A DNA stretch of 64,000 nt, from positions 29,683 through 93,682 of the forward strand of contig NW_025955116.1 in the NCBI RefSeq assembly GCF_022376445.1. The letters run 5' to 3'. Below, piece after piece: positions 49,000 through 61,500 of this stretch (positions within the stretch are counted from its first letter, which is position 1; each line of letters starts with the position of its first letter). The DNA comes from Fomitopsis serialis. Lineage: Eukaryota; Basidiomycota; Agaricomycetes; Polyporales; Fomitopsidaceae. Position numbers and translations under genes: made by a program. A model generated the notes under the pieces. It saw only the letters and a program-made list of their open reading frames with translations. It searched no databases and was not told the DNA's origin.

Positions 49000-50940
49000 A
49001 TAATAACATCTCATTTACGAAATCTCGTTGTGCCCATTGTGAACTGTAGTAGTTGCATCAAAATCTGCAGTGTATCTACGACTGTCTATTGCCCAAGTAT
49101 GGTGTGCTATGGCCCGATTATGATGGACTATGGAGTCCAGGCATGGTGCTACAGGATGCTATGGGGTGCTATATGGCCAGATGCCAGAGCTATCGTGTAC
49201 AATATAAAGGGGGGTATGCATTAGGGGCTATGGACACTATGTAGGCTACATGGTATCATGTGGCAATTCTCTTTTTTCCTGATGTATACTGGGTAATCTG
49301 AGCATCTTTTGCCATCTTATGGCCCTTGCATACAATGTAATGGTAACCATTGCAGCTCAAGGCAATCATACACTTGTCTTTGATGTGTCTGTATATTTCA
49401 TAGATTTTCTGCATTTTTCTGAGCCCTACATGCCCCTGTTTGTGTATGATTCCTCTTTGGGAAGGTCACATACTCCATATGGTAATTATGCATCCACTGC
49501 TGGCTTTGTCTTGCTCACAGACACAATCTAGGGATACATACCTGAATGTGTACTTACACTATCATCTTATGGCAATGTCCACTAAATGAATAGTTCCTAG
49601 AGTGGTGTGGCAGGCTATATGAACTGGGGCCACAGCAACCAACCATCTTACCAGGTTATTGAGGATGGTATCTTATCTGATGTCAAACCCATGCCATATA
49701 CAGCTTTATTCACATTGCCTGGATCATTTTGAATATTGTCTCAATTTTCCGCTTTTTTCTGAGTCTAAACAAACTCTCTTAAGCACAGTAACAGTCCGCA
49801 CCTACATCGCTTACTAAGCGCCCACCAAGCGCCCAGATGCCGTTCGGAGGTGCAACCGTGCGGAAATTTGGCACGGTTGCACCTCCGAACGGCACGAGAG
49901 GGATGCCGAGCTGCTCTGATTGGTGCAACAAGCCCTTTTCTGCCCTAATCAGGCAGGCTGCCGAGGTTTTGAGCTGAGTTTGAATCTCAGCCACAGGCTC
50001 CTTAGTGGCACTGTACCTGCTGTACTGTGGCCTCACTAAAATGCGGAAAATTCCCAAAATAATCTCTGTGATAGGTATGATGTCATAGAGTCTATAGCTG
50101 CTGTGACTTGCCCATTACCTTCACTGGTCACGGCACAATTCACAAAACAAAAAAACATGCAAATGCCTCTGTGCACATGAGTGCATCCCTTTTCACCTCA
50201 AAAGTCTCTCTTTTGAAGCCTATATGCTGCCCACAGATTCTCTGACATCTCAAACCTGCTAAATAGGGTAGCTGACCTTCCTAAAATGGTAATTTTGCTT
50301 AACCTGCTCAGTCTGGGCTCACAAAATGCAGAAAATCAGGGAATATTATGTGTAATCAGACTCATCTGTATTGCCTTGTTTATGAAGGCAATTCATCTTG
50401 TATGGAGGCCCCCACAATATATCACTAGTATGACTTGCCCAGTTGTTTGAAATTCAGGAAACAGAGAAACACATGCATGAATGTGGCATTTGACTGGGAT
50501 ACACTGACTGAAATCTAATCAACTCTTATAGAGGTTATAGAGATGATAAACTCATTTGATAGCCCATCATTTCAAGGGTTAATCATACATTGGAGGAATG
50601 AAGAACAAAGGACAACATTTAGAGAATCACAAGTGACTGTGCAGATATGAATGGCTTGTTGTCTCTGAAACACATTGCCTATGACCTGTATGGATATGTG
50701 CATAGTTTACAATGCATGGATGTGTCTGGAAGTTGCACAGCACAGCTATTGGTGGGGAAAAATGGTAATAACATGCATGTTTTGATGTCTCAGCACTGAA
50801 TGAGCATATAGGGCAATCCTCTCCACTTGTAAATATGCTCAGGGATGCTCCACATATATCCTGGAATATGTTCTGATTAATCCGCATTTTCTTGACCCCA
50901 AAACAAGTGAATTGTGCTCCAGTACCAGCATGCACTTACA
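49000..50940 (+). repeat. CpG-poor repeat block, left of the RecQ/DUF6589 unit
   Basis: The segment 49,975-50,380 aligns in the same orientation with 59,225-59,640. Shared order: tttgaatctcagccacaggc; aaaatgcggaaaattcccaa; a tcacaaaac/cacaaagc word; then tcagtctgggctcacaaaat and agggaatatt. No gene. Few CpGs outside the hairpin insert at 49.8 kb. Confidence 0.75.
49809..49925 (+). mobile_element. Short hairpin insert related to the RecQ/DUF6589 unit ends
   Basis: Perfect 23-bp arms at 49839-49861 and 49871-49893 enclose ggaaatttg. The left side reads tacatcgcttactaagcgcc, the same as the left outer flank of the RecQ/DUF6589 unit at 50,940. The right side (agggat..gagc..ctc..attgg) resembles the right outer flank at 58,550-58,574. 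This is a CpG-rich islet in CpG-poor DNA, probably a non-autonomous relative. Confidence 0.55.
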
Positions 50941-50979
50941 TCGCTTACTAAGCGCTCAATTAAGCGCCCGTTGCCGAAG

Positions 50980-51196
50980 CGGAGTCGTCGACAGGCCGGA
51001 ATTCCGGCCTGTTAGACTCGCAAGCCAGTCGTTGAGTCCCGCCACCACCTTTTCCGGCACTCCTCTTTTGGAAACAATAAAAGCCAGGAAAGGAATCGGA
51101 GTGCGAAAAGGAGGTGGGGGCCTCTAACGACTGGTGCAATTGGACGCCGTTTACCCCAGTACCCCCGTAGCGCCCGGGACTTAGAGATATCGCGGA
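50980..51196 (+). repeat. Left terminal inverted repeat of the RecQ/DUF6589 unit
   Basis: The outer 20 bases cggagtcgtcgacaggccgg are the exact complement of 58521-58540. A 22-bp palindrome (50991-51012) overlaps the end. Next is an imperfect stem of about 40 bp (arms about 51,022-51,065 and 51,090-51,135). The inner block from caattggacg (51137) through acccccgtag and gggacttagagatatcgcgg (51,175-51,194) matches the right end in inverse orientation at about three bases in four. Confidence 0.85.
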
Positions 51197-51338
51197 TTGT
51201 GCTCTGCCGCCCTCAGCAGCAAGTACTGCGCTCGCGAGTTGTCGCATTCGCCATCCCATGCACATATGACATTGTAATTGCCAGAATACATTCTCGTATC
51301 AATGGACATCAGTCCATGGCAGCATACAAGCCCAGTCG

Positions 51339-54300
51339 TCATTCACCGCCTCCTCCGAGCCCTCTGCCTCGCCCTGCCGTTCCTGCGCCGCGCGCGTGTG
51401 CCCGTCCGCGACCGCGACCGCGACCTCGACCCCTGGTAGCTTGGAATGCAAGATAGTTATCAGAGGTAAGTTGGGTGCTGAAGATTTCCGCGTGCGATGC
51501 AGTCGCGCCGCCATGCTGGGACGTCGAGCTCGGCCCAGCCTGAAGACTGTATGGGTCAGGTTGCGGCGATGGCCATTGACGGTATGGTGTTATCGGCAGT
51601 GGGTGGGGATGGTACTGCACCTGGTGAGTGGCCAGGTCGTGTGGATTCGGTATGCTGGCATGGAAGGGAAATGACGGCAGCAATGGCCCGGGCGCATGAG
51701 ATAGGGACGGGAACGGTGATGGTGGTAGAGATGGGTATGGCGAGAACGGTACAGGCGGGAACGGTGAGGGCGGTAGAGACGGGTGTGGCGACGGGGGTAC
51801 AGATGGGTACCGTGAAGGCGGTAGAGATGGAAAAGGCGATGGTGGTAAGAATGAAAACGGTGACGGGGTTACAGATGGGTAGGGCACTCCCTGAGATGGA
51901 CCCGCGCTGCTCGACTGGGTAGTTGGCGTGTGCGTGTGTACGGAGACGACATTCTGTGAGGTCCCTATAAGGCTACCCAAAGATTCCGATGTCTATTCAA
52001 TGTGTGTCAATGCGAGCAGCGAGTGTAATGTCCAGCTACTAGTAGCAGTCAGGCCTCGACGTACCTCAGACGGCTTGTTGGAATCAGTGTGCCGTGCGCG
52101 TTTGTGTGAGTGAAGAGGCTCATGTCCGTCCTCGGTAACATTGGTGTCATCGGTGTTGCCACGTTTACCCGCATGGCCCTTGCGAGCGGATGCTTTCTTC
52201 GTGCCATCATTCCTACTCGCGGCCTTCTTGGCCTTTGGAATCGAACGGATAGGCAGCGACAGCAGGAGATCTGTCAATTCGGCCTCATACCTGTCACGCC
52301 ATAGCCACGTCTTGAGCATTGCTGCAGCCACGGCACGCGTGATGGGTCCGACAGAGGCCAGGCGTTCGACCCGTGTGTCGCTGAGGATCGCAGTGGCACC
52401 AAACAGTGCATGTGTGTGATCTTCCTCAAGCTTCCTCTCGCGCCAGTCTTCGAGGGCGGTCTGCGTGGCAGGGTCGGGGAGACCTACTTTCTGTTTTGCA
52501 TTCTTCTGGGCAAGTTGGCCCAAGAGAGGCGGGCGTGCTCGATTCAATAGTGATGGGTGGCATACATCGCAACATGGGACTTCGGAAGATGGGTTGCGCT
52601 CTGATGAACAGTGGGTCAGCTCGATTTCATGTCTGGTGAGTATGATTTCGGCACTTTACCAGATGCTGGGCACTCATAGATGGACCTCCAGACTTTCCGA
52701 CGACACTGAGTGCTTTGTACAAAAGCGAGAAGACCTTCATCGTCAGTGTCGTGGTCAAGCTTCGGGTGGTCCGCCGGGTCGAGGGTATTGTCCCCAGCAA
52801 CACCCGCACTACCTCCGCGATTGACGCCATGTCGCTTGGCGTAGTCTTTTGGTGTCTTCTCGCGACTGTCCTTCGGAGGTCCGCGAGCTTTGCGTCTGTG
52901 GCGTTTGGTGGATGGTTTTGTGGTCGAGTTGGATTCGTGGGTCGGCGATGTCGATGCTAAGTTGATTGAATAAGCCGACCGCTCCACAAGGAGGATCGCA
53001 ATCCCGGTCCTATTACGCGCGCGTGCGGCACGTCCAGCTCGCTGGATGAAATTTGACAAGGTGGCAGGCAGCTTCCATTGCACGACGACATCTACGTCAG
53101 GAACATTGCATCCCTGGGATGACCATGACGTGAGTAAACTACCGTGTCATGGCACTGCAATGGAATCTCGCTTACCATCCCAGCAGCGTCCGTACACACC
53201 AGAATACGGATCGGACCGATCTTCAGGTTATCTGCAGTGACGTCCGCACTGCTGTATTCATGATTGTTGCGGAAGGCCGCCATGGCATGCGTGCGGTATC
53301 CAGCGGACATCGTAGCATTGAAAGGGCGGATGACACCCAATTCGTACAAGGCAGGGTTGCGCTGTCGAAGGAGAGTCCCGAGGTGATCGATGATGTCGTT
53401 ACCAGTATCAATGTTGTCGACGTAGAGATATGTCTTTGGGATGTCATTTGCTGTCTCGATCTTCTCTGGTAGCACGAAGTCTAAATCAGCAAGCGTGTTT
53501 TGAGGGTGCTCACATGCGCGAACAACGATCGAGACATTGGGGCGATCATTTCCGGCATTGACAAACTGGCTGCCAGTCTTGGGGAAGTGGAGCTTGTTAT
53601 GAAGATCACGGCGGACACGCGCGGTCAGCGTTGCCGTTACAGCAATGATAGGTGTACCCGGTGCAAGGAACACTCGTACAGTTCCGAGGCTCGCATATTT
53701 CTTACGGAAGTCTGCTCCCCAGTGGGACAGACAGTGTGCTTCGTCAACAACAATGCTGATGACTCGGCGCATGAATCGGGTGTTCCGTAGAATGCGGTCC
53801 TTGAACGTGCTTGACTGGAGCATTTCGGGCGAGATCAAGATGATGCGATATTGACCCTGCAGAATTTCCTATACATAGAGTCAACATGACCCCGAGGGCG
53901 CAGATCGTAAATGGTGTTTACCTGCATAATCTGTCGATTCTGTGAAAGTGTGTTCTGACCGTTGACAGCAATGGCAGTCAGGCCAAACTCGGTCTTGAAT
54001 GTCTCGACCTAGTGAGCAGAAATAAGTGTACATGTTCACATTCAAGTTGGGCATGAGGACCAACTCGAGTCTCGACATACCATTTCTTCCTCCAAAGCCA
54101 GTAGCGGACAGACCATAATGGTCGTCTTCCCTTCGTTGGTCGGCCAGAGATGAGGGCCTGCAGCAATGGCTGTTTTCCCGGAGCCGGTTGGGGCTTGAAT
54201 AATGGCATCAACGCCTTCGAGCTGCGCCTTTACGCCTTCGAGTTGGAAAAATAGCGGCTCACTGCTCCAGCGAAACCGTGTCTGCATGAGCCGGGCGAGC

Positions 54301-54405
54301 TCCTTCACCTCCTCTGCGGTGAGCTTTTGTTGTTGGTGCTGTTGTAGAGTTTTCCTACTAGGGCGGCGTAATTTATAGGCATACTTCGCAGGTCCGCGAG
54401 CCATG
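51339..54405 (-). CDS. RecQ-type DEAH helicase
   Basis: Multi-exon gene from ATG 54405. The N-terminus is basic, followed by Walker A APTGSGKT (about 54,190), VDEAHCLSHWGADFR with the DEAH box and the motif after it (about 53,720), AVTATLTARVRR (motif III), and a second RecA lobe with RILVCTDAAGM. After a short intron (about 53,120-53,180) come CNVPDVDVVVQWKLP and FIQRAGRAARARN (motif VI). Motif order and DEAH-CLSHWG mark the RecQ family (3'-5' DNA helicase). No RQC or HRDC domain is evident. Instead there is a basic linker, a helical C-terminal region, then, across a last intron, a tail of PPSPFPSLPPS repeats and an RGRGRGRGR end, which suggests nucleic-acid binding. It is divergent from the DUF6589 gene with 169 bp between start codons, inside the same inverted repeats. 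No break was seen. Confidence 0.85.
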
Positions 54406-54574
54406 GAGTTCTCAGTGCAGTGAGTGTAGTGAAAAGCGAGAGTGATCGACAGGCAAGCCGCGATCAACTGCGCGCCTGTCAGCCCTTCGAGTGTTGTCGG
54501 TCATGAACTCAACTCCAATCGCTGCTCACCCTCTCTCACTTCGACACTAGGTCGTCCGCCGAGTGGTCTGCACA
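54406..54574. promoter_or_regulatory. Bidirectional promoter between the RecQ and DUF6589 genes
   Basis: A 169-bp gap between divergent start codons must hold both promoters. No clear TATA box was seen. Shared control of the two genes is inferred from spacing only. Confidence 0.5.
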
Positions 54575-57500
54575 ATGTCACAGGATCAAGTACATCCATT
54601 CAGTCCACTGCCCCGGTCTTCACCACTCACGGAACTATCATCGGATGTCGACGAGCCCCGGGCCCCTTTGCCCTCTCTATTCTCTGCACTCTATCAAATC
54701 CCTGCATCAAGCGACCATGTCATCTCGGACACGTCCATGCTCCCCAAGTCCCCTGCACGAACTGTTGCAGATTGTCGTCGCAAGGACAAAGCTGATCGTG
54801 ATCGGGCTCGTCGCCTCGAGGAAGAAGCTGCAGAACAGGAGCGTTCAGCAATCTGTCAAGCCGCATGCGAACAGGCCCTTGCAATACTCGAGGAGGCGAA
54901 CGTACCTTTTATTGAACTCCTTCGCCTCATGTCTGACCCCAGTGGTTATCGCGGAAAGGAAAGGTACTGGGGTCTATTCCGGGACCGAGTCGGTGTTGTC
55001 GAGGTGCTGGATATGTGGGTCTCTTCGCAAAATAGCGCAACAGGAAGAGAGACCGTTCGCGAGTGGGCCTCTGCATACATCGCTCGACTGGTAGCTCGCG
55101 AAGGTCATGCAGTGTGCAAGGACGGCTTCCTGCGTACCGAAAAAAAGGAGATCAACGAACACTTTGCATTGGACTTCAGCCTCGAGGCATTAGCCGGAGA
55201 TCTCGAGTTTATTTGTCCATTGATGATGGATCTGTTGTCCGCCTTCAGTACATCCACAAGGCAGAAACAAAAGAGCACCGCGACGAGTCTGCAACGGCAC
55301 CAAAATGTGAGTACATACTGAAGCTCAGCACGCCGGATGTGTACTCACAATCGGCTTTAGTATCTCACCACGAGCGCACTCATCTGTCTCAGTGCACGCA
55401 GTCAGAAGAATAACTACGCGCGCAATGTCTTTGGGCTGTACGCGTACACTTTGGGGGCGAAACGCCAGATGATCGAGCTGCTGTCACATCTTGGGTTGTG
55501 CAGTAGCTACAATACCCTCACCGGAAACCTCGGTGATGACACCCTGGACCCGGAGGATCCCACGGAACTTGCACAGTCAGAGACTACACCTGCTAGCGAC
55601 ACAGAAAGCTCAGAATCCGAGCTATCGGACAGTGACAATGACGACTCACCTAACCGCCCGCGCCCTTCAAATCCAGAACCCGATTCCCCTGCACCATCGA
55701 CTCTTCCGAGGCAACCTCATACAACTGTTCCACCAGGCGGTCTCATCAATCCACCCGACGGACCCGTCGATCCACTAGATCCACCACCCCTTCACAATCC
55801 ACCATCGCATAGACCCTCTCCGATTCACGCGCAAGAGCCGTCACCTGCAAACTCGGACGATCTTCTCTGGGCCCAGGTCGATGAGCTTCGAGGTACTGAG
55901 CAAGGAGATAGAGGTGCCGAAATCCTGGCCGCCCTTGATGACCTTCGTGCTGAGAGTCGAGGTAGTGGCCAGCAAGAAGATGGCGGGAAGGACAACTCCA
56001 AGAATACGGTGAAGAAGAAGCGAGTCGAGGGCATTCTCAAGCGCCTCTCGGATGCGTGTCGACGCGCTGCACGTGCTAACGCATCGACACGTCTCGTCGC
56101 GTTTGTATACGACAATATCAACATGGTCTTCCGCGTCGCTGAGCAGACGATTGGTCGAAAGGACACACAGGAGAACGGCACATGCGCCACGGCATTTGAG
56201 CTATACGGTGCGACTGAAGATGCCATGCAGTGTGCGGACCTCATGGCAGGGATTGTCAATGCGCCGCCACTCGGTCGTAATGATGTGCTCTTCACGCCTC
56301 AGGAGAGCCTCGACTTCAAAAGGATTCTCCAACACACTGTTCTCCAAATCATCGTGACACACGGCGGTGACAATTTTTCACGCTTCACGAAGGATGTCGA
56401 GGGCTTTGGCCCACTGCTTGAGACGCGCATCCCTCTTCATCAGACCCGAATCTTTCCACTGCCATCCATGAAGATCGACGAATCGACCATCGTTGGCAAT
56501 GCAGACCTGACGAAGACTATCCTTGCAGAACTGGGGCAGGACATGGGGGCAGACGGTTTTGGTGATGTTGTCCGGGTCATTGCTGGCGACCAGCTATCCA
56601 TTGCACGTCTTCGTTCACTCGCGAAGAATCGTGCTGGCCATGACAACTTCACGAACTCTTACCTCTGGGCTGTCACAATGCCTGGACTGTTCCACTATAA
56701 GATGGCAGGCTCACATGGTGTTATGGAGCTACACTACGGCAAGACCACGAGTCATCGTAACCCCGGTTCACTGGCCTTCCACAACACTGTACTCGACCGC
56801 AAGCCGATCACCCTCACAAGCCTCCCACCCTTCCGCGTCTGTCAAGATCTCATCTACGTCTCGTTGTATGCACGGGTCCTCGTATGCCTAGAGGCAGTCA
56901 GTGCATGCGAGTCTCTCGATGACTACGCGACGCATGTGTCATGGACGCGGCTCCAGGAACACACAGCCGAGATCGTCGACCACTACACAGACGGCCGTAC
57001 AGTGGGCCGCCTACGCACGGCTCGTGCGGCCGAAGCACGTCGCATGGCCACCGAGGCTGTTGAGGGTGGGTCCAGCAACGAGCCATCCTCGTCAGGTGAA
57101 GGTGTCCGTCGTAGTACTGTGACAGAGGCGGCGACAGCAAGCGGTCAGCCAAATAACCACGAGGCTGAACAGCACATACCGAGGGAAGGTGATATGGTGT
57201 ACGAGAATGCATTGCTCTTCATGCGTGATTCTCTAGTTCTGCGTGCCTTGACAAATGCAATCAAAATGGGTGTATCGGGACGCATAGTGTTAATACTCAA
57301 GGCGTTGGCGTTGATCTATCGCGGATCTGGACGAACAAAGTATGCTCAGGAGGTATTATTCTTGATACACAACTTAACTCACGTCTGGCCGGAGGGACTA
57401 CGGTGCGTCTATCGACCTCATCAATCACAGTCACTCACCTGATCAGATATGCTGCCCAGGAAAATTGTCTTGAACAACTGGCTCGTGAACCCGACGGGCA

Positions 57501-58286
57501 AACCAGATTCGTGGGTCGAAGTCGACCTCTTGCAGGAGCATATGAATTTCTGGATTAAGGTGAGTTTTACAAAGCTAGGCATGAGAGCACGAAGAGCTGA
57601 CTGTTGTGACACGACTCACCGTCTAACAGACGATTTATAGGGCGCACGGGAGCAACGCATCTTGGGAATGGCTTGCGATGATCTCACCGTGTATCGACAT
57701 CCTTCGCCGCCTATCTACACAAATGAATGCGTCCCTCGGTGCAAAGCTAGGGTCAAAGCACACAAGTCCGAGCATCAAGAAGGATATCGACATACTCATG
57801 AATTCCTTGCGGCACCATCGTGTTTACGAGGTCATTCCCGGCCGCACAATTGACGATGATCGACCTGTCGTCCCCGACGCATTGACACTTGGGCTAGAGA
57901 ATCTTGAAGGGCCACTCGAAGACTTCAATCAGACCTTTTCCAAGCTCCAAGCCCGCTGTCGGACCACGCCTCTTGTGGGCGGCAAGTATCCGGGTCAGAC
58001 AGTCGCGTCGAGTCTGGCCTCGGAGACTGTTTCACGGACTGCTGGGCCGAGCGATGTAGGTCGAGCAGTGCCGAGCAGCTCGGAGCTTCGTGGTGGTGCG
58101 CTGGATGGCATGCAACGCGGCGACGAGAACAGAGATAGTGACATCGAAGAAGACGACAACGACGAGGATAGCGATGAAGAGGAAGAAGAAGACGCACAGC
58201 CCCAGGACATCATGTTCTCGCTTGACACCGCGGGCGATGTAGCACTCGATCCTGACCGTGTTGGCGACTTCGAGTTTGGTTCCTGA
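54575..58286 (+). CDS. DUF6589-type protein
   Basis: Start ATG 54575. Exon 1 (to about 55,302) has a Ser/Pro-rich head, a charged coil (KDKADRDRARRLEEEAAEQE) and a helical region. After a 60-bp intron comes TSALICLSARSQKNNYARNV with LGAKRQMIELLSHLGLCSSY, then a disordered Pro/Asp/Ser segment (55.55-55.99 kb). The large exon holds family hallmarks: FVYDNINMVFRVAEQTIGRK, DTQENGTCATAFELY, IVTHGGDNFSRF, PLPSMKIDESTIVGNADLTK, VRVIAGDQLSIARLRSLAKN, WAVTMPGLFHYKMAGSHGVM and NPGSLAFHNTVLDRKPITLT. Later exons give LNNWLVNPTGKPDSWVEVDL, LQEHMNFWIK and YRAHGSNASWEWLAM, then an acidic tail to 58,286. The join near 57,432-57,450 is off by one base as I read it and may be a frameshift. The biochemical role of DUF6589 is unknown; pairing with RecQ inside inverted repeats suggests a role in mobility. 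Confidence 0.85.
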
Positions 58287-58382
58287 TACTATTATGCAAA
58301 ATAAAACCACTTTCCTCCGTACGGACAGCGACTTGGGCCGCTGGACGAGCTCTCGGTGCTCTGTGCTCAGTAGACGATGTGC

Positions 58383-58540
58383 GCGATTTCTCTAAGTCCC
58401 GTTTCCCACGGGGGTACTCAGGTAAAGCGCGCCCAATTGGACCAGCCGTTCTGGCGAACGTGAGGAGTGCCACGACTGAGTTTGAAATTTCTTACGCCAG
58501 AACGGCTGGGAACGAGCCTACCGGCCTGTCGACGACTCCG
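58383..58540 (-). repeat. Right terminal inverted repeat of the RecQ/DUF6589 unit
   Basis: Inner block (58,383-58,440: gcgatttctctaagtcccg then gggggtactcagg and cccaattgg) matches the left block in inverse orientation. A perfect 15-bp hairpin, ccagccgttctggcg at 58442-58456 with its complement at 58495-58509, takes the place of the left end's longer stem. The outer 20 bases (58521-58540) are the exact complement of 50980-50999. Confidence 0.85.
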
Positions 58541-58599
58541 GTCACTCAAAAGGGATTTTGGAGCACTCCCATTGGCTGGAATGCTGACAAATGTTACCT

Positions 58600-61500
58600 T
58601 TTAAAGTAATCTTTCAATCTCAGCTCTTCATGCCGAGTTTTTTGATGGCTTCAAGCCACACTAACTGAGCTCTTACTAGAACCCCATTAAATGCAGAAAA
58701 CTCCCAAAATATTGCTTCTTCATGGAATGCCCCTTGAGTACTGACAAGGGTGCCAGATTAGGTGTTCTTGTTGTTTTTCACAGAGTACTGACCTTGGCAA
58801 GTGATACTGGGGATATAAGCAAAATGCTTGTACAAGACAGTTCCACATGTATGGGCTATGTGGGGTGGAGGATATCAAACATACAAAACTGCCATATATG
58901 GTTAGTCCCCTGCCCATTTGGGAAGTTGGCCATGCATGGCCTCTGCAGGACTGGATAAATAGCAGGAAAATAAGAGAAAAATTAGATAGTACTATGAATT
59001 TGTATTGGGTTGACTGTTGAGGCCATATGGCAGAAAACATATAATAATGCAGAGTTTCCCATGCATAGCCTGATACAAGCCACTCTTTCAATGAGTCTTG
59101 GTCCATCTTGTAAGCACCATTATCACCTGGAATTCTCAGGGACTGGCAGCTCCAGACAGGATCCCAGGCTATTCTGTTCAGTTCAACTCTTGAATAGGCC
59201 CTGCAAAGGCAGGCTATTGGGCTGAGTTTGAAAGCAAGCCACAAGCTCATTAGTGACACTGTATTTGCTGTGCTATGGTCTCCCAAAAAACAGTTGGGAA
59301 TATTCCCAGTCATGTATATGATGTCAGAGAGGCTGTACATAGTATGCCTTCCCATGGATTCATATAAACATGGCACCCACCATTCACAAAGCAAAATAAA
59401 ATACATATTCCTCTGTACACACTGGTTCTTTCACTTTGTTTGTGTTTCCTGTGATGCTCGCCAACTGCCTATGGATTGTGTGGCTATATGAGACCTGAAT
59501 GAAACCTGCCATATGTGGTACCTGACCTTCTCAAAATGGAAAGTCCGAGTTATCTGCTGTGTCTGGGCTCAGAAAATGCGGATTAAACAAGGGAATATTC
59601 TGTATGATTCCACTCACCTTGTACTGCTTGCTATAAGTATTGATTGGCTCATGTCTAAACCCATTGGCAGGCAATGCATATGCAGAAAATGGTGAACACC
59701 TGTGGCACAAAGGCCATAGTTAATGCTGAGTATGTTCATAATATTGGCTCTGTCTCACATGTGAATGGCATAGCTATCAATATTATGGGTTCACAGAGCT
59801 TTATGACACTGTACTGATCCTAGAAAGTGATAGAAAGACATTGTACAAGTTGTGTTGTGCATCTACTACTGTTGCTAGAAAGTCTATAGGCTAGCAATGT
59901 CATAAAGTGGGGACACCACACATAGGTGATCAAATGCTTTGATGGTCTCTGCAATGCTAGATAAATGGTAGGAAATGAGATAAAATCAGCTGACTGTTGT
60001 AGGCCAATGCATGACAGTACATCTCAGATGTGCTCATGCAGAGTTCACAGCCTGATGTCTGCAGCTCTATTGTCCCAGTCCAGTATAAGCATGTCTTTGA
60101 CTGATTGTATCAATATGAAGCAGTGCCAATTATACAGTATGATGGTGCTATGCTTGGTTGTTAATTGCTCATATAATTTTTGCCTGGAGCATATTCAATG
60201 TCTGTATGCACTACCATCATCCTATTCTCATGCAACGGCCCTTGGTATGTGAAGATAGAATAGGCAGCTCTTGGCTTGTTCATATGGGCAAAAATGTATT
60301 GACAGTGGTGTCTGTTTGTGCAATGTCTACTATCACTCATATTGCAGTGTATGCTGTGATTTCTTCCTGATTGGGCTCAGAAGAAGTCATGGTTGCCATG
60401 GAAATAATGCAGACTTGCATTGCTTACTAAGCAACAGTGAAGAGGCCATATTACAATGGACTTCTGAGCCAATATATGGCTGTCCTTTTATGGATCTCTA
60501 GTCAACAATATGACTTTGGGAGTACTCTCATTTGCTGCAACTGTTTCCTTTTACATGTGATGATAAAATATCAGCTACTCATGTTGGGTCCTTTCATGTT
60601 ATATGGAAAGTGGAAATATAACACTTTAGACCCAGGTGTGAACATGTGTGATATTTGAACAGCATTGGAAATTTGTGGCAGCGTGCCTACCAGTACACCA
60701 TTTGGCAGTTGATCCTGGGTGGTATCTGCCATGCCCAAGGAATGTCAACATGAAAAATATAGTGTCTAATCCAAATATAGTACCATACATTGTATGTGCA
60801 CACAAAATGAACAGTCAGCCAGAAAATGACACTGGTGATTATCGTGGGAGTATGTCTGAAGATATAGAAATCCCTGGACTTATGATCAGAGAGCATGACC
60901 ATTGATAGTATGCATTACTAGAATACCCAGGAAAGGCCCATGTGCAAGTCTTAGTATGCAGTCTGTTGTTAGGACAAGGCATTGAAAACCCTTTTCTTTT
61001 ACAAGAAATTCCATAGATATGGTCTTTGACTAGGGTAGGCAGCAGGAATTGTTATCACTCCTGGGCTTTGTTATCTTTATTCTAGATTCTTTTAATGGAC
61101 TTCATTTGGGGTTCACAATGCCTTCTGACCAGATTTAAGTGATCTTTTTTTCCCACATTGTTATTCTTTGTGGCACCTATTGGTGTATGTTCTGACTGGA
61201 CTATTACCAAGTTTCTAGTGCTCTCCTTAGACCCCTTGTGACCAGATGCTTTGAAAGATATTACTGGGGTTCTATTAGCTCAGACTATGTTATCTATTGA
61301 TATATTATCCCAGCTGGCAGGCAATCTATGGGTGACTTGTCAAGCTGTACACTATTTCTGAGTGTTCATAAGGCTGTGCTAGTGTTTCAGGACAACATGC
61401 AAGTGGTGTGTCATGAATCACAGAGCACATCCTTGATGATCAGTGAGAATTATTGGCACATCTACCCTTGCCTTACAATGAGCCTGTGAGCTTATTGTGC

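Follow-up and report, generated by a model that had tools for sequence, protein, structure and literature searches.

A DNA transposon of Fomitopsis serialis encoding a RecQ-type helicase and a likely DUF6589 transposase, most likely of the AcademH kind

Results

Genes and features of the locus

The window analyzed here is a stretch of 64,000 nucleotides from the genome of Fomitopsis serialis (contig NW_025955116.1), and all coordinates refer to it. It contains two divergent genes, as an earlier note on this DNA had described: a RecQ-type helicase gene starting at 54404 on the minus strand, and a DUF6589 gene starting at 54575 on the plus strand, with 170 bp between them. Once spliced, both reading frames are open up to their stop. 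The features of the locus are the following:

51013..58520, no strand: transposon, 7,508 bp; limits from empty copies and 9-bp target duplication
51004..51012, plus: target duplication CCGGCCTGT, left copy
58521..58529, plus: target duplication CCGGCCTGT, right copy
51013..51020, plus: left terminal repeat TAGACTCG
58513..58520, minus: right terminal repeat TAGGCTCG, matching the left repeat at 7/8 bases
50980..51012, plus: split target palindrome, left part, outside the element (outer repeat of the earlier note)
58521..58540, plus: split target palindrome, right part, outside the element
51025..51134, no strand: left subterminal hairpin (z -6.10; 0/200 shuffles)
58442..58509, no strand: right subterminal hairpin, 15-bp stem (z -5.27; 0/200 shuffles)
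51126..51194, plus: inner inverted block, left
58382..58450, minus: inner inverted block, right
51339..54404, minus: RecQ-type helicase gene, 921 aa, 6 exons, spliced by hand
54404-54081, 54008-53922, 53868-53176, 53113-52674, 52632-52065, 51992-51339, minus: RecQ exons
54575..58286, plus: DUF6589 gene, predicted transposase, 1,176 aa, 4 exons; PF20231
54575-55306, 55361-57402, 57460-57559, 57630-58286, plus: DUF6589 exons
56111..56113, plus: first conserved D codon (VYDNIN), 224/225 relatives
56588..56590, plus: second conserved D codon (AGDQLS), 239/239
56693..56695, plus: conserved H codon (PGLFH), 237/239
57536..57538, plus: conserved E codon (VDLLQEHMN), 204/205

The stretch from 51013 to 58520 is a real mobile element, a DNA transposon. 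It starts with TAGACTCG and ends with CGAGCCTA, and the 9-bp sequence CCGGCCTGT is duplicated on its two sides. The limits were placed at 51013 and 58520 because of this duplication and because the insert is absent from all 20 genome copies of the flanking repeat that were fetched (20/20). The earlier note had taken a 20-bp outer inverted repeat as the end of the unit. The identical inverse bases are there (50980-50999 and 58521-58540), but they are not the end of the element: they are the two arms of a palindrome of the target repeat, which is found elsewhere in the genome free of the element, and we rejected them as a transposon end. The contrast in CpG content between the unit and its surroundings was confirmed, with an observed/expected ratio of 1.01 for the element itself, compared with 0.35 for the adjacent 2 kb on its left and 0.10 for those on its right.

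Other copies and their ends

Exact 9-bp duplications were found at 11 of the 19 copies examined in the genome (5/10 copies of group A and 6/9 end pairs of group B), and their sequence varies among copies. The remaining 8 have no exact 9-bp duplication; an 8-bp duplication was seen in 1/19. Across DUF6589 elements the ends are not identical and fall into three related types. One end type has 155 matches in the genome, and derivatives of 998, 162 and 151 bp retain the same ends, representing deleted and MITE-like copies. For one sister copy, a filled and an empty site (C156 and C224) could be paired at 99% identity over 400/400 bases. For the 998-bp copy (C34), a search with its joined flanks found no clean empty site; the matches were its own two halves and diverged sequences (70-86%), a few of which (72-73%) cross the joint. 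At the 13 sites compared, between 1 and 4 positions out of 10 or 11 were complementary about the duplication centre, and therefore a preference for palindromic targets was not seen with this duplication-centred procedure, which would miss off-centre palindromes such as the target of the 51013-58520 element.

The hairpins that had been noticed just inside each end were recovered, with arms at 51025-51054 and 51105-51134 on the left and at 58442-58456 and 58495-58509 on the right, and both are stronger than chance. Two-sided changes occur at 5 of the 40 predicted pairs of the left hairpin (6 copies compared), and the right stem is nearly invariant across 7 sequences. No strong hairpin was obtained from the single group B end folded (z -0.99). 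The inner inverted block held up as well, and spans 69 nt with 81% matching (51126-51194 and 58382-58450).

The two proteins

The RecQ-type protein has Pfam DEAD and Helicase_C matches, and matches RecQ, RecQ1, RecQ5, BLM and WRN in PDB. In the scanned DUF6589 proteins no Pfam family other than PF20231 was above the cut-off, and the DUF6589 profile gave 3 weak matches against PDB sequences (best E 4.3); thus neither Pfam nor PDB ties DUF6589 to a known transposase. A literature search for DUF6589 or its Pfam number returned nothing relevant. Counted over 240 DUF6589 relatives, the residues D, D, H and E are conserved with hardly an exception (codons listed above). Among 11 divergent members, the only invariant columns are D-N, G-D and H. 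E689 of protein P0003 was considered as the third catalytic residue and discarded, since it is replaced in three loci (L052, L055 and L056) that keep the later E. From this residue pattern DUF6589 is a likely DDE transposase; together with the pairing with RecQ and the target duplications, it is the best candidate for the recombinase, a role that the earlier note had suggested it could have.

Pairing of RecQ and DUF6589

Of the 45 DUF6589 loci, 32 have a RecQ exon no more than 10 kb away, against 1 of 74 loci of KDZ transposases; the 45 loci were merged by hand from 93 matches, and the near-identical C390/C523, C235/C556 and C4/C573 are not independent. The helicase is on the opposite strand in all 32 pairs, 9 of them divergent and 23 convergent. 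DUF6589 copies with neither a RecQ neighbour nor shared ends had been named as evidence against a joint unit: at 13/45 loci no RecQ match was detected within 10 kb, and the ends fall into related types. Five of these 13 loci are about 2.3 kb or less from the end of their contig, on the flank expected to carry RecQ in the convergent layout; the other 8 are not. When a group B RecQ was used as query, only its own close family was retrieved (8 matches), with no further DUF6589 pairing.

The association extends to other species. Among the matches listed, 40 contigs are common to the 120 DUF6589 entries and 119 of the 120 RecQ entries (contigs of equal size being taken as the same), and five DUF6589/RecQ pairs have consecutive locus tags. 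DUF6589 and RecQ protein distances correlate across species (rho 0.69; 0/2,000 permutations). Duplications, pairing and correlated divergence together agree with a self-contained mobile unit in which the two genes move together, as first suggested from the window.

Discussion

We consider it probable that the 7,508-bp element is a DNA transposon with DUF6589 as predicted DDE-type transposase and RecQ as accessory helicase, most likely of the AcademH kind. We base this placement on the helicase, the length of the duplications and the group of hosts, compared with published descriptions of AcademH. AcademH elements are described as encoding a helicase and generating 9 or 10-bp duplications (PMC10045372), and as occurring in Basidiomycota (PMC10045372, PMC10799480); the helicase gene, the 9-bp duplications and the basidiomycete host are common to the element reported here. 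The helicase expected of AcademH is of superfamily II, and the RecQ-type protein is such a helicase. Fungal “Academ” copies are described with DEAD-helicase and recQ_fam domains and as often annotated as host genes (PMC6416283), and the DUF6589 element resembles them in both respects. The title of Kojima (2020, Mobile DNA 11:15) places AcademH in animals and fungi, whereas the names attached to DUF6589 look all fungal in the named entries among the best 120 of 356 and best 120 of 181 matches. Since helicase-carrying elements with 9 or 10-bp duplications had already been described as AcademH, the proposal of a new transposon type is unsupported.

The helicase and the 9-bp duplications could also resemble AcademH by convergence in a separate, undescribed superfamily. 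We find this unlikely: it would suit a family with PF20231 as its only domain above the cut-off, a helicase on the opposite strand in all 32 pairs and in two layouts, and a name not found in the literature search, but what is described of AcademH and of fungal Academ copies fits the type of helicase, the length of the duplications and the group of hosts found here. A broader version, in which DUF6589 is a distinct mushroom-wide superfamily, with RecQ as a standing partner that opens the end hairpins and with large MITE-like families left behind, seems to us quite unlikely. KolobokH, in which a Kolobok-type transposase is combined with a RecQ helicase, is likewise a DNA transposon of fungi, and is reported from fungi only (PMC9587614). 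Kolobok elements are nevertheless described there with 4-bp TTAA duplications and RR..YY ends, and KolobokH with RecQ downstream of the transposase domain; the varied 9-bp duplications, the TAG..CTA or CAG..CTG ends and the separate opposite-strand RecQ gene (32/32) led us to reject this very improbable assignment. KDZ elements (Kyakuja, Dileera, Zisupton), whose large transposases are abundant in mushrooms and associated with 7 or 8-bp duplications (PMC12730594), are present in the F. serialis genome too. They were rejected on the absence of PF18758 from the scanned DUF6589 proteins and on duplications of 9 bp in 11/19 copies and 8 bp in 1/19.

That RecQ itself drives the movement, in a Helitron-like or replicative manner with DUF6589 as passenger or regulator, is highly improbable, even though multicopy, mobile-looking RecQ-like genes are described at some fungal chromosome ends (PMC4522978, PMC7473861). 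Inverted ends with 9-bp duplications require a staggered-cutting enzyme, and helicases are not known to cut DNA. DUF6589 retains the acidic residues required for such cutting, and its divergence parallels that of RecQ. Helitrons have a HUH Rep domain and are not known to leave a target duplication; here target duplications are present and no Helitron domain was matched, and a Helitron was rejected. MuDR/MULE elements make a target duplication of about 9 bp, and are described as belonging to a common C/DxxH group of superfamilies; these are points of likeness, but no MULE transposase domain was matched (Pfam) in the scanned DUF6589 proteins, and this assignment was rejected too. Finally, public records list the products of both genes as ordinary host proteins, as would be expected of two host genes that happen to lie in old repeats. 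This explanation is hardly credible: it is contradicted by the target duplications, by the empty sites, by the deleted derivatives and by the many copies dispersed in the genome.

In the transposon model favoured here, DUF6589 would bind the subterminal blocks, cut the element ends with its D-D-E residues, and join them to a target cut at positions 9 bp apart. RecQ may unwind the hairpin-rich ends or the strand-transfer product, so that repair could finish.

In public mushroom genomes, many genes have no other label than “DUF6589 domain-containing”, “P-loop NTPase” or “DNA 3'-5' helicase”. Our results suggest that DUF6589/RecQ pairs are transposon genes, which should be left out when host genes or host RecQ expansions are counted, and DUF6589 as a likely transposase provides a useful link. 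An intact copy whose ends are clean, together with its empty sites and very short derivatives, makes the role of a helicase in DNA transposition testable. The same material makes it testable why the duplications of helicase-bearing Academ elements are longer than those of nuclease-bearing ones, as described in PMC10045372.

Limits and genes of the element

The element carrying RecQ and DUF6589 is a DNA transposon with both genes open, and it has probably been mobile in recent times. An earlier note had placed its ends at a 20-bp inverted repeat (50980-50999 and 58521-58540) and suggested a new transposon type. The repeat is present; however, empty copies of the surrounding sequence show that it does not constitute the element ends. 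Among the genome matches listed, other copies of the element align with the window only inward of about 51011-51013, and the outermost 33 bases are found without the element at at least 25 other loci. Twenty of those 25 loci were extracted and compared with the joined flanks of the window: the joined flanks cross the joint without an insert in all 20 (79-98% identity), and 17 of them keep the palindrome core unchanged. The left flank extends up to 51012 and the right flank begins at 58521, with a nine-base overlap, CCGGCCTGT. The element therefore occupies 51013-58520; its insertion split a palindrome of the target, whose two parts make up the 20-bp repeat. The flanking repeat (50000-51012 and 58521-59800) is CpG-poor and longer than 2 kb; its central palindrome spans about 44 bp, and at least 25 other copies were among the matches listed.

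Ends of the element in the window
Left end, starting at 51013: TAGACTCG
Right end, turned, from 58520: TAGGCTCG

Gene models were built by hand splicing at GT-AG introns. In these models neither gene is interrupted before its stop codon, RecQ encoding 921 aa in 6 exons and DUF6589 1,176 aa in 4 exons; the two starts are 170 bp apart. The RecQ protein has DEAD and Helicase_C domain matches, and its closest solved structures are RecQ, RecQ1, RecQ5, BLM and WRN; the best NCBIfam model, recQ_fam, scored 152.7 bits, under its cut-off of 219.8. Past the helicase part, the C-terminus (51339-51992) carries a long proline/serine-rich tail of repeat units and a glycine/arginine stretch. In the DUF6589 protein, PF20231 is the sole domain above a cut-off.

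Copies, target duplications and empty sites

Copies like that in the window (group A) include four further two-ended ones, of 7,454, 7,559, 7,596 and 8,992 bp, as well as one of 998 bp and short copies of 162 and 151 bp. An exact 9-bp duplication was found at 5 of the 10 two-ended group A copies and none at the other 5; the four short copies form two pairs sharing flanks, and are therefore not independent. A left half (locus L009, contig C254) and a right half (L017, C279), both >99% identical to the element in the window, have a common flanking 9-mer, GAGTGGAGC, as if a single insertion had been split through rearrangement or assembly.

A second end type (group B), CAGGCTCCTCCCCATCCGCC, had 76 matches in the genome at up to 3 mismatches, versus 15 for the reversed control. 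The nine pairs of group B ends examined showed an exact 9-bp duplication (six pairs), one of 8 bp (one), one of 9 bp with a mismatch (one) or none (one). Contig C113 (269037-281941) bears two group B DUF6589/RecQ pairs that are placed back to back, inverted relative to each other, and have end sequences in the space separating them, possibly an inverted duplication or a tandem insertion.

At two loci the DUF6589 domain is preceded, at a distance of about 1.4 kb, by a third end type, TAGTCTCCGTAGCTGACC. It had 155 genome matches at up to 3 mismatches versus 0 for the control, and thus probably represents a large MITE family. A hairpin-like stretch lies directly inside it.

Sites of the third end type
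C49:3010-3030, at locus L062
C23:73978-73998, at locus L064

The joined flanks of the copy on contig C156 match C224:140200-140594 with 99% identity (400/400 bases); these are a filled and an empty site, representing two haplotypes or a duplicated segment. At L011, 8384-8430, the C156 copy has the duplication AGTATCCGT and directly adjoins a sequence much like the third end type. A search of the genome with the joined flanks of the C34 copy found no clean empty site.

Both ends of the element in the window form strong hairpins (z -6.10 and -5.27), as do those of the group A copy on C1 (z -7.91 and -5.79); the single group B end folded gave no strong hairpin (z -0.99). Across six copies, the left hairpin has two-sided changes in 5 of 40 predicted pairs, with other pairs broken in some copies; the right stem is near-invariant and therefore little informative. 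Our guess would be that the transposase or RecQ makes use of these hairpins.

Linkage of RecQ and DUF6589

We merged 93 DUF6589 genome matches by hand into 45 loci. A RecQ exon lies within 10 kb at 32 of them, versus a chance expectation of about 1.4% of genome places, and the two genes are on opposite strands in every pair (9 divergent, 23 convergent). The other 13 loci had no RecQ match within 10 kb; a contig end is no more than about 2.3 kb away at 5 of them, but not at the other 8. Since the RecQ query was taken from group A, distant RecQ genes can have escaped detection. As a control, one of 74 loci of KDZ (Kyakuja, Dileera, Zisupton) transposases had RecQ within that distance, at a place that also has a DUF6589/RecQ pair.

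In public records, at least 40 contigs, equated by length, were common to the DUF6589 (120) and RecQ (119 of 120) rows listed. Consecutive locus tags mark five of the gene pairs (EVJ58_g5477/g5478, EVJ58_g10739/g10740, NM688_g6046/g6047, GSI_01526/GSI_01525 and VTO73DRAFT_10518/10517). Protein distances of DUF6589 and RecQ correlated across 40 contig-matched pairs (rho 0.69; 0 of 2,000 permutations as high). The result was weaker with partners shuffled inside genomes only (17 pairs), the observed value being met in 148 of 3,000 trials. Target duplications, empty sites and linkage together support the proposal that RecQ and DUF6589 move as a pair.

DUF6589 as a predicted transposase

Among 240 DUF6589 sequences, considering those with a residue at the respective place, the first D is conserved in 224/225, the second D in 239/239, an H (mostly within a GxxH motif) in 237/239, and an E in 204/205. 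In 11 very divergent members (16-24% identity to the first), D-N, G-D and H are the sole invariant columns. The E is encoded by a later exon. Pattern matching recovered it at 15 of 30 DUF6589 loci and inspection by eye at four more (L050, L052, L055 and L056); it was not located at the remaining 11, some of them truncated or intron-split. These conserved residues support the earlier suggestion of a recombinase, and we infer from sequence conservation that DUF6589 is probably the transposase.

No mention of DUF6589 by name was found in the literature searched. KolobokH is, like the element, fungal and RecQ-bearing, but Kolobok transposons have TTAA duplications, unlike the 9 bp found here, and RR..YY ends (PMC9587614). 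Duplications are of 8 bp in Zisupton and 7 bp in two Kyakuja families (PMC12730594), and of 9 or 10 bp in AcademH versus 3 or 4 in AcademX, a difference that seems tied to the encoded helicase and nuclease (PMC10045372). AcademH is described, at low copy numbers, from the Basidiomycota, Ascomycota and Mucoromycota (PMC10799480), and Academ copies are said to have DEAD-helicase and recQ_fam domains and often to be annotated as host genes (PMC6416283). Judged by these descriptions, the element agrees with AcademH in the features compared, namely helicase, duplication length and host group. Since these features fit AcademH, the idea of a new transposon type finds no support. The main use of these data lies in a likely role for DUF6589, as transposase in a family that resembles AcademH and is common in mushrooms.
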